Part shown: positions 1-4,501 of the stretch, piece after piece
Position numbering within the stretch: the first letter of the stretch is position 1
Layout of the letters: the number at the start of each line of letters is the position of its first letter
From: Pseudomonas tructae
GTDB taxonomy: Bacteria > Pseudomonadota > Gammaproteobacteria > Pseudomonadales > Pseudomonadaceae
Length of the DNA: 64,000 bases
Direction: 5' to 3'
NCBI RefSeq assembly: GCF_004214895.1
Contig: NZ_CP035952.1
Span: 3,854,501 to 3,918,500, forward strand
Program-made: the position numbers and the translations under genes
The notes under the pieces: generated by a model
What the model was told of the DNA's origin: nothing
Databases searched by the model: none
Seen by the model: only the letters and a program-made list of their open reading frames with translations

Positions 1-252
1 CGCGCTGTAATATAGAATCTTTTTCTTGCCTAATTCTGACTGCTGGCCATCATCACCCGCCATTTTGGGGGCAATCAAATCTTTCAGCGCCCGCGACAAG
101 CGGGTCTTCCCCGTGCCATTGAAGGCGTAGATAAGTTGGACCTTTGGAAGGGGCCTAACTTCCTCTACAACTTTTATTGTTTCGGGAACAGTTTTTTTAA
201 CCGTCTTCGGAGTACTCAGTTGCTTGGCGATGTCTCTGAGCGTCGTGCTCAT
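1..252 (-). CDS. P-loop ATPase, N-terminal part (runs off left edge)
   Basis: Only the first 84 codons are in the window. A charged Lys/Pro/Val-rich leader of about 40 residues is followed by a strand and a P-loop, FNGTGKT at about residues 44-50, then an amphipathic helix ([10 protein letters not shown]), which is the start of an ATP-binding domain. The ATG lies 1 nt beyond the hsdS stop, so the gene is translated in one operon with hsdM and hsdS. Accessory ATPases are common in type I restriction loci, and some of them (PrrC/RloC type) are anticodon nucleases. The visible part cannot tell whether this is one of those, so the function is left open. Confidence 0.75.
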
Positions 253-253
253 T

Positions 254-1345
254 TTATGCCTCTACTTCTTCCGGCTTGGGATAGGTCAACAGCAAATCTC
301 GACAATACACGTATTGCTTATGGCGCAACTCGACTTCTCGCCGCAACCCTTCAATTAGCGAATTGGAGAGGGCATTAACCTTTTCGAGAATACTAATGAT
401 GCGCTCTTGTTCGTCGATAGAGGGGACGGGGATCTTCAGTTCGTTCAAAACAGACTGAGTCTGACTTGGCACACCGCCAGCTTTATTCATCCCGCCCAGA
501 CCTACTGTCATTAAGAAGTAGTAAAGGAATTTCGGGCGGATCTGCGCTTCGTCAATTTCCGTATAGAAGATGGTGTCAACGTTCCAGAACGGAACGTCCA
601 CATAAAACAGATTGCCAAGCGAGCCTTTCCTCGGAATTAAGACTGAAGGTTTATTATAGGCATAAGTGTTGGCGTATCGCATGATACCACCAGATCCGTA
701 AACTGGAAATTCTCCATCACCAAGACTCTTATGGTCCCTACCGTTCTTAATGCGCACAACATCGCCAAGACGCTTAAGCGCGACTTCCTTCCCTTCAAAG
801 TTCAACAACCAGCCGAGGTAATAGTTGTACTGTTTTTTGCGTGCTTCAAGTTCACCAGTAAGCTCGTCGGTGAGTTCGTTTTTAAGCTCGGCGAAGGAGT
901 CTAGTATCCTGACGACTTCGTCCTGCACTTCAAATGGTGGAATGGGGATTTCCAGTTCGTTCAATACAGACTGAGTCTGGCTTGGTACGCCACCTGCTTT
1001 GTTCATCTCGCCAAGGCCTACTGTCATTAAGAAGTAGTAAAGGAATTTCGGACGAATCTGCGCCTCGTCAATTTCCGTATAGAAGATGGTATCAACATTC
1101 CAGAACGGAACGTCCACGAAAAACAGATTGCCAAGCGAGCCTTTCCTCGGAATTAAGACAGAAGGCCTATTGTAGGCGTAAGTATCGGCGTAACGCATGA
1201 TACCACCGGACCCATAAACCGGAATTTCTCCATCGCCAAGGCTCTTGTGGTCCCTACCGTTCTTAATGCGCACAATGTCGCCAAGACGCTTGAACTTCAC
1301 CCCGTCCGAGCAGAGTTCTGCGATTAGGTCATTAACACGACTCAT
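254..1345 (-). CDS. hsdS: Type I restriction-modification specificity subunit with two near-identical TRDs
   Basis: HsdS chooses the DNA sequence that HsdM methylates and HsdR cuts. The 363-residue protein has the usual layout: target-recognition domain 1 at about residues 19-137, a helical spacer to about 190, TRD2 at about 191-308, and a distal helical spacer. Normally the two TRDs differ and read different half-sites. Here they differ at only about 8 of 118 aligned positions, and the DNA copies (about 442-786 and 954-1298) are clearly related by duplication. The ATG at 1345 overlaps the hsdM stop as ATGA, which favours it over the upstream in-frame ATG at 1363. The identification is firm. 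A target with two like half-sites is an inference from the repeat. Confidence 0.95.
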
Positions 1346-2898
1346 GCCTCCTGCTCCTCGCATTCAATCTCCGCGACGAGGGCGTCGATATTCTTACGCA
1401 ACTGGTCGATTCTGGCGATGGTGGTTTTCAGCTCGGCATTGAGCTGGGCAATGTCCACTACTTCGCTACTGTCCTTGGGTTCCACGTAGCTGCTAACCGA
1501 TAGGTTATATTCGTTAGCGGCGACTTTTTCAAATGGTACGGATTGGGCAAAATGATCGACATTGGCCTTGCTGTCGAACGCGTCCATGATGTCCTTGACA
1601 TGCGAGTCCAGCAGGACGTTGTTATTGGTTTCTTTCTTGAACAGGCCGCTGGCGTCGATAAACTGGGTGGCGGTGTCGGTTTTGTGTTTGGATAGCACGA
1701 GAATATTTACGGCAATTGTGGTACCGAAGAATAGATTGGGTGCCAGCGAAATCACCGTCTCGACATAGTTGTTGTCCACCAGGTACTTGCGGATTTTTTG
1801 CTCGGCACCTCCACGGTAGAAGACGCCAGGAAAGCAGACGATAGCAGCGCGGCCTTTGCTCGATAAGTAACTGAGGGCGTGCAATACAAAAGCGAAGTCG
1901 GCCTTAGATTTAGGCGCAAGCACTCCGGCCGGAGCAAAGCGCTCATCGTTAATAAGCGTCGGGTCATCCGAGCCGATCCACTTCACTGAATACGGCGGGT
2001 TGGAAACGATGGCGTCGAAGGGTTTGTCGTCGCCAAAATGCGGGGCGATCAGGGTGTTGCCGAGCTGGACGTTGAACTTGTCATAGTTGATGTTATGCAA
2101 GAACATGTTCATCCGCGCCAGATTGTAAGTGGTGTGGTTGATTTCTTGCCCGAAGAAGCCGTCTTCGATGATGTGCGCGTCAAAGTGCTTTTTAGCTTGC
2201 AGCAGCAGTGAGCCAGATCCACACGCTGGGTCGTAAATCTTGTTGACGCTGGTCTGCCTGTGCATGGCGAGCTGAGCAATTAGCTTTGAGACATGCTGCG
2301 GCGTGAAGAACTCACCGCCAGACTTACCTGCGTTGGCTGCATAGTTGGAGATGAGAAACTCGTAGGCATCGCCGAAGAGATCGATGTTGCTGCCTTGAAA
2401 ATCAGAAAAGTTCAGCTCGGCTACACCTTTGAGCACTGCGGCCAGGCGAAGGTTTTTATCCTTAACCGTGTTGCCCAGACGGTTACTTGTGGTGTCGAAA
2501 TCAGCAAACAGGCCTCTGATGTCGCGCTCCGACGGGTAACCGTTAGCGGAGGTCTCAATGGCAGCAAAGATGGTTGCCAAGTCGGTGTTCAGACTCTCGT
2601 TGTTGTTGGCGCTTGCCGCGATGGTGAAAAATAGCTGGCTGGGGTAGATGAAATATCCCTTGGTCTTGATTGCGTCATCTTTAATCTCTGGGGTGATGAC
2701 GCTATCGTCCAGCTTGGCATAATGAATGCTGTCGTCACCGCCTTCGATGTAAGCCTCAAAGTTTTCGCTGATGAAGCGATAGAACAGGGTACCGAGCACA
2801 TACTGCTTGAAATCCCAGCCGTCGACCGCACCACGAACATCGTTGGCGATTTGCCAGATCCGGCGTTGTAGTTCAGCGCGTTGTTGAATGCTGGTCAT
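1342..2898 (-). CDS. hsdM: Type I restriction-modification N6-adenine methyltransferase subunit
   Basis: HsdM is the SAM-dependent methylase of the type I complex. The 518-residue product has the N-terminal helical HsdM domain (about 10-130), the SAM-binding motif DPACGSGS at 223-230 and the catalytic NPPY at 300-303, which is the signature of gamma-class N6-adenine methylases. The length is normal for the family and no key motif is missing. The start (2898) overlaps the end of the small upstream helix-turn-helix gene by 4 nt and the stop overlaps hsdS by 4 nt, so the three genes are translationally coupled. Confidence 0.97.
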
Positions 2899-3122
2899 GG
2901 TTGGTTTCCTGTCGAATTGATCATTTTTTCTTCATCCGCTCCACCGGCGCGCACCCAGTCATCCACCTCGGAAAGCTGAAATTTCCACAGCCTCCCGATT
3001 TTGTGTGCTGGCAGCCCCTTGTACTCGCGCCAACGGTAAACGGTGTCCTTCACGACGCCCAGATGGCGGGCAACATCGATTGCGGTGACCCAAGGTTCGG
3101 TGCTCATGGCATTGGAGCTCAT
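2895..3122 (-). CDS. Small excisionase/MerR-type helix-turn-helix protein heading the hsd operon
   Basis: A 75-residue protein with one winged-helix domain: the stretch [20 protein letters not shown], then [13 protein letters not shown] and an ending VDDWV are typical of the excisionase/AlpA 'helix-turn-helix domain' group. The stop overlaps the hsdM start, so it belongs to the operon and may regulate restriction-modification expression. That role is inferred from position. Starts at 3143 (TTG), 3122 (ATG) and 3107 (ATG) are all possible, and none has a convincing Shine-Dalgarno sequence. The domain lies wholly downstream of 3107. Confidence 0.7.
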
Positions 3123-3294
3123 GGAGGTTGTAAAGTAGTTCAAAGTAGTCTTAAGTCTGCCAGAAGGCTACTAGTGTCGCTATCTTTAAATGGTCATGAA
3201 CCTGGCTTCACGATTAAGCGAGGTGCCGCTTTAAAGGACATGGCTTTGCCACACAATGCATTTTCAGTGGTCAACAACTCGCGGACACGGAATT

Positions 3295-4424: not shown

Positions 4425-4501
4425 TGGTCGGGACGGAGTGATTCGAACACTCGACCCCTTGCACCCCATGCAAGTGCGCTACCGGGCTGCGCTACGCCCC
4501 G
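4425..4501 (-). tRNA. tRNA-Pro (anticodon GGG)
   Basis: The 77-nt reverse complement folds as a tRNA: a 7-bp acceptor stem CGGGGCG/CGTCCCG, anticodon loop ATGGGGT (anticodon GGG) on a CTTGC/GCAAG stem, T-loop TTCGAAT, and an encoded CCA end. It reads CCC/CCU proline codons. It sits just downstream of the ihfA-MerR genes, a common place in Pseudomonas, and its 3' side faces the hsd/IS accessory block, so it is a plausible island integration site. Confidence 0.97.

Follow-up and report, generated by a model that had tools for sequence, protein, structure and literature searches.

The HsdS specificity subunits of EcoprrI, EcoR124I/II and EcoDXXI are described as having unlike halves and asymmetric sites (PMC3874165). 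Symmetric specificity within the type IC frame is described for NgoAV, EcoR124I HsdS(delta50) and EcoDXXI-deltaC, each with two copies of one target-recognition domain (TRD) brought together by two half-length S chains (PMC3874165), and truncated type IC S subunits are reported to act as homodimers on palindromes (PMC3874165, PMC3320862, PMC2877798). Two copies of one TRD can also lie in a single chain. The natural, full-length HsdS of Btr188II from Bibersteinia trehalosi is described as containing a single type of TRD twice, in imperfect copies, and its site, determined by methylome and cloning, is the palindrome ACGN6CGT (PMC4996451). The S subunit of M.BstXI, the modification part of BstXI, likewise has two similar TRDs in one chain and a symmetric site, CCAN6TGG; it is reviewed outside type I proper, and its copies are described simply as similar (PMC3874165). 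For Hpy99XV (JHP1422), a TRD2+TRD3 construct in which the TRDs are identical recognised the palindrome AAGN5CTT, one of two cloned allelic variants of the S gene methylated that palindromic site only, and the same source calls pairs of identical or unlike TRDs commonly accepted (PMC3936762). In H. pylori HPV225_1544, TRD e is found at both positions, but of a type IIG S gene (PMC3077401). No published account of the hsdS gene described here, or of the E. coli twin alleles with which it is compared below, was found in the portions of the literature searched.

A type IC operon with an embedded prrC-like gene

The window, a 64,000-nucleotide stretch of the Pseudomonas tructae genome (one contig of 5,685,196 bases), contains an hsdS gene at 254..1345 on the reverse strand. 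The gene encodes a 363-aa type IC specificity subunit composed of two in-register 172-aa units, with two stretches matching Pfam Methylase_S and a match to PADLOC Specificity_I at 6e-107. A profile of 30 sequences aligns with EcoR124 HsdS (7bst_A) over profile positions 1-367 (6.3e-103). The start ATG at 1345 overlaps the hsdM stop (ATGA, 1342-1345); an alternative, longer hsdS frame has a possible start at 1363.

The neighbouring genes lie on the same strand. hsdM (1342..2898) overlaps the start of hsdS and encodes a 518-aa protein with an N6_Mtase match at 1.9e-117; it aligns with EcoR124 HsdM (7bst_D) at 965 bits, with an NPPY motif visible in the alignment. A gene for a small HTH_17 protein (2895..3143; HTH_17 1e-12, mad1 3e-08) overlaps the start of hsdM and is possibly an operon regulator. 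On the other side of hsdS, the start of a prrC-like anticodon-nuclease gene occupies 1..252; its 420-aa frame extends past the left edge of the window (L103 8990-10252), adjoins both hsdS and hsdR, and matches the PrrC model at 3.6e-141. It is followed by hsdR (L103 5895-8993), which encodes a 1032-aa protein with a REase_I match and the Pfam domain EcoR124_C, scoring 1800 bits against EcoR124 HsdR (2w00_A). HsdM and HsdR both match their EcoR124 counterparts over nearly full length.

The order is thus HTH gene, hsdM, hsdS, prrC-like gene, hsdR, all overlapping or nearly touching in one run. The EcoprrI operon has the order M-S-prrC-R, as does this one. HsdM and HsdR are orthologous to those of EcoR124 (7bst_D, 2w00_A, EcoR124_C), and HsdS is of the EcoR124 kind, with two TRDs and conserved helical regions (the 7bst_A match and two long helices in the structural model). 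prrC is described as embedded in the type IC operon of EcoprrI (PMC3874165), and here too the prrC-like gene lies inside the hsd operon, between hsdS and hsdR; the likeness to EcoprrI and EcoDXXI is by description, sequence comparison having been limited to EcoR124. By its sequence, the system is apparently an intact EcoR124/EcoprrI-type (type IC) restriction-modification system. Among 84 loci with HsdS relatives (L004-L083, L149-L152), 18 have prrC-like matches, those in L074 and L009 being partial.

GC3 values of 0.54 (hsdS) and 0.67 (hsdM) lie below those of pheT (0.80) and thrS (0.78), so the hsd operon looks acquired. A tRNA-Pro(ggg) gene at 4425-4501, approximately 1.3 kb from the low-GC3 operon, is a possible integration spot; a search for a duplicate att site found the 32-base tRNA end once genome-wide at no more than three mismatches, and no att repeat. 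Beyond hsdR, the stretch L103 1754-5831 encodes a D12-class adenine methyltransferase, an Ogg-HhH glycosylase-like protein, a PfkB/nucleoside 2-deoxyribosyltransferase fusion, then a QueC-like protein and a protein with no Pfam or PADLOC match, which possibly form a further defence or nucleotide-modification cassette.

PF01420 matches this hsdS alone in the genome, revealing no second hsdS or store of TRDs, and Tandem Repeats Finder returned no rows, and hence no repeats for slippage, in window positions 1-3200. A phase-variable or multi-hsdS system was rejected on these two results.

Two near-identical TRDs in one chain

Self-alignment of HsdS delimits TRD1 at residues 19-137 (935..1291, reverse strand) and TRD2 at residues 191-309 (419..775, reverse strand), corresponding to elements 17-135 and 189-307 of the AlphaFold model. 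The two are identical at 110 of 119 residues. Over residues 19-136 and 191-308 the count is 110 of 118, in agreement with the original prediction of about eight differences in 118 positions. That prediction was also right that the coding DNA is repeated, although the positions it gave were a few bases off: 315 of 357 bases (88.2%) are identical between 935-1291 and 419-775. The starts of the repeats are 516 bases apart, an exact register of 172 codons, and at this fixed offset residues 16-187 and 188-359 share 128 of 172 residues. Across 2000 shuffles, TRD2 reached at most 19 identities with TRD1 (mean 7.8). Identity drops at once on either side of the unit: of the 18 preceding residues 1 is identical, and of the 35 following ones 12 are. 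The repeated unit is therefore one TRD, which begins with the short KRLGD motif.

The two TRDs lie in one open frame, rather than in an S gene with only one complete TRD, and in this the gene differs from the half-length S chains of NgoAV, EcoR124I HsdS(delta50) and EcoDXXI-deltaC; JHP1422, for its part, has three TRDs where this HsdS has two. The copies are separated by 42 base differences in 357, which makes an assembly artefact very unlikely as the source of the repeat.

Predicted recognition of a gapped palindrome

The reading that best fits these observations, and one we regard as very probable, is a type IC system whose symmetric S subunit recognises a gapped palindrome and whose twin state is old. 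Because the same TRD type occupies both positions, the single chain would give an S subunit with almost exact two-fold symmetry. With two HsdM subunits bound, it would direct methylation of the corresponding adenine in each of two identical half-sites arranged as inverted repeats, while HsdR would cut DNA without the mark. As in Btr188II and M.BstXI, two copies of the same TRD are present in one chain, though Btr188II is likened to this HsdS by description and not by TRD sequence. Together with Hpy99XV TRD2+TRD3 and the truncated EcoR124I and EcoDXXI subunits, these precedents lend good support, by analogy, to the earlier proposal that equal TRDs predict a palindromic bipartite site.

Small changes can alter the specificity of a TRD. 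The nine residue differences between TRD1 and TRD2 could therefore shift specificity on one side, so that two similar domains would read different half-sites, which we consider very unlikely. At 27 positions, 63 other members of the TRD family (12 close and 51 far, the ungapped members among 73 non-window TRDs, with 10 gapped ones left out) show no variation, and both TRDs conserve every one of these. When the eight differences within residues 19-136 are set against the 12 closest members, seven occupy sites of variation and one, the conservative pair R60/K232, an invariant site; the ninth (137/309) lies outside this comparison. Further, the imperfect copies of Btr188II and M.BstXI are described as still reading one half-site (PMC4996451, PMC3874165). 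In the portions of the literature searched, no member of this TRD family with a known half-site was found, the published motifs of Aeromonas veronii C4 and Photorhabdus TT01 lying outside the comparison.

For the symmetric S subunit favoured here, the distance between the half-sites may be predicted from the helical regions. The AlphaFold model (alignment of 30 sequences; mean pLDDT 86.3, pTM 0.64) has the order TRD, helix, TRD, helix. The first helix, the coiled-coil helix of conserved region 1, spans residues 138-180 (806..934, reverse strand), and the second, the C-terminal coiled-coil helix of conserved region 2, spans residues 310-352 (290..418, reverse strand); the two are predicted to be equal in length, at 43 residues each. 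Region 1 carries a degenerate TAEL-type spacer, with 17 aa between RILDSF and RKKQYNYY. The E. coli allele that carries three TAEL repeats has a spacer of equal length, whereas EcoR124 7bst_A and the E. coli two-TAEL alleles, at 13 aa, fall short of it by one 4-residue repeat. Two repeats are described as giving a 7-nt and three repeats an 8-nt interval between the methylated bases, the three-repeat class comprising EcoR124II, EcoDXXI and EcoprrI (PMC3874165). By analogy with that class, whose spacer length it shares, the present subunit is therefore predicted to place 8 bp between the two methylated adenines, a value inferred from repeats that are here degenerate. The target would be a gapped palindrome in which approximately 8 bp separate the methylated adenines; were the methylated A the last base of the half-site, it could be written xxA-N8-Txx. 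The rule linking repeats to spacing has exceptions, since one half-HsdS fusion was reported to give an unexpected spacing (PMC6158711).

Distribution of twin TRDs

The original prediction held that normal HsdS proteins carry two unlike TRDs and that recognition of an interrupted palindrome is rare in nature; twin TRDs do appear uncommon. A search of 229 gammaproteobacterial genomes yielded 89 PF01420 loci, of which 83 gave a frame of 340-650 aa; the six without a fitting frame (L154, L160, L162, L170, L177, L180) were dropped. The 89 loci are a non-random sample, high-scoring among the matches listed (29 taken from the search and 60 picked by frame length), to which several genomes contribute more than one gene. 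None of the 83 HsdS in this non-random sample has halves at least 50% alike over at least 100 columns. The highest-scoring matches between halves are 37% over 188 columns and 39% over 212 columns, and the few that reach 50-62% do so over 20-57 columns only. The twin-TRD HsdS is thus uncommon, and it is already known in nature.

Relatives of the P. tructae HsdS were collected by a scan of genome contigs, from which the best 80 of 377 loci were taken. Eleven of the 80 frames are shorter than 300 aa; among the other 69, a sample chosen by likeness to this HsdS, L065 is the only twin-like one. L065 (6001-7062) is an HsdS gene of Neptunomonas qingdaonensis in which a different TRD is present in two similar copies (61% likeness between the halves over 180 columns), and a prrC-like gene adjoins it. 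The HsdS open frames of L021, L032 and L060, at approximately 600 aa, could accommodate a fusion or an additional, third TRD. Within the best 80 of 377, loci from Acidovorax, Duganella, Shewanella and Kluyvera carry the same TRD type as P. tructae in the N position (84-92% identity), paired with an unlike C-TRD, and loci from Comamonas and Agreia carry it in the C position (71-74% identity). A scan of 45 viral-contig loci revealed no member of this TRD family at its threshold.

In E. coli, the TRD type is present in 56 of 5426 genomes and matches at two places in four of them (B379, 19SZHZ886Rt, 2017.15.02CC and TF5). In all four, both copies lie in one hsdS, so that these strains resemble P. 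tructae in repeating one TRD type within the protein. Of the remaining 52 genomes three were examined (L150, L151, L185), and each has the TRD in a single position. The B379 hsdS has three TAEL repeats and the other three strains have two; 19SZHZ886Rt, 2017.15.02CC and TF5 share a DNA-identical hsdS, whose protein differs from that of B379 by exactly one TAEL. The B379 TRDs are 84-85% identical to those of P. tructae, and the B379 locus, unlike the P. tructae operon, has no prrC-like match.

The two B379 copies are less alike than each is to an asymmetric allele. TRD1 and TRD2 are 97.1% identical in DNA, whereas TRD1 is 99.7% identical to the N-TRD of plasmid allele L151 and TRD2 is 99.4% identical to the C-TRD of O111:H8 allele L150; a tree pairs the B379 TRDs with L151 and L150 in the same way. 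Since each copy matches a different asymmetric allele, the symmetry of B379 most likely arose through the combination of two alleles by domain shuffling.

Age and origin of the twin state in P. tructae

The original prediction suggested that the repeat may reflect a recent intragenic duplication or gene conversion, in which one TRD was made from the other. The divergence of the copies does not bear this out. Over 118 codons (Nei-Gojobori), dS is 0.565 and dN 0.030, a dN/dS ratio of approximately 0.05. The 36 differing codons, 27 synonymous and 9 non-synonymous, are not clustered; the longest identical run is 13 codons (P = 0.24), and no converted tract is visible. A recent copy is not supported because of this high dS and the spread of differences along the unit, and the limits of the repeated unit at the TRD also tell against it. 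The two points in its favour, that the copies are each other's closest relatives among the TRDs compared and that a PF01420 search of the genome turned up no other hsdS as a possible donor, leave a recent event improbable.

An old twin state, the reading preferred here, could have come about in either of two ways, through copying of one TRD unit inside the gene or through an exchange of TRDs among alleles. A DNA tree of 14 TRDs groups the two P. tructae copies as sisters (100/99), joined by a shared stem of 0.12, and in a protein tree of 40 TRDs they are paired more weakly (85/83). This sister placement in the DNA tree, which is the only direct evidence of origin for this gene, favours copying inside a single lineage, although the close relatives sampled are few. 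Old copying within the gene or lineage, with both copies under purifying selection ever since, would account for the shared stem and for the low dN/dS between the copies. However, TRD1 and the Acidovorax copy (L005) have a similar ratio (dN 0.049, dS 0.94), so ordinary constraint on a TRD explains the low value without selection for symmetry, and we give old copying somewhat less than an even chance.

The alternative, that one TRD entered from another hsdS allele as a chance pairing within an exchangeable pool of TRDs, as proposed for B379, comes close to an even chance. The TRD type is found both at the N position beside an unlike C-TRD (L005, L006, L004, L007, L151, L152) and at the C position beside an unlike N-TRD (L150, L010, L035), and each TRD of B379 has its own match in a different asymmetric allele (the L151 N-TRD and the L150 C-TRD). 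Set against exchange are the sister placement of the window copies (100/99) and a search of 398 genomes of the genus (own included) that found no donor for the window allele, the best-scoring match outside its own genome being 40% identical over residues 96-363.

Implications for type I specificity

It is possible, though we hold the idea only tentatively, that the twin-TRD HsdS, seen here in P. tructae and in four E. coli strains, is a recurring state of a widely exchanged TRD type in EcoR124-like systems, with long-selected symmetry and tuned spacing. Twin HsdS would then be single-chain pseudo-homodimers, with helices of equal length in the P. tructae subunit, and the E. coli twins that are one TAEL apart would recognise a common palindrome whose gap differs in length by a single base.

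If confirmed, the symmetric target predicted for P. tructae would provide a naturally occurring example of symmetric-site recognition by a type I enzyme. The gene also indicates that a repeated TRD need not imply recent duplication, which corrects a natural first guess. Together with the E. coli twins, with two or three TAEL repeats, and the asymmetric parent-like alleles, it would provide a ready set for separating the effects of TRD identity and spacer length on the target, and the same set bears on the question of why pairs of unlike domains prevail among type I systems.
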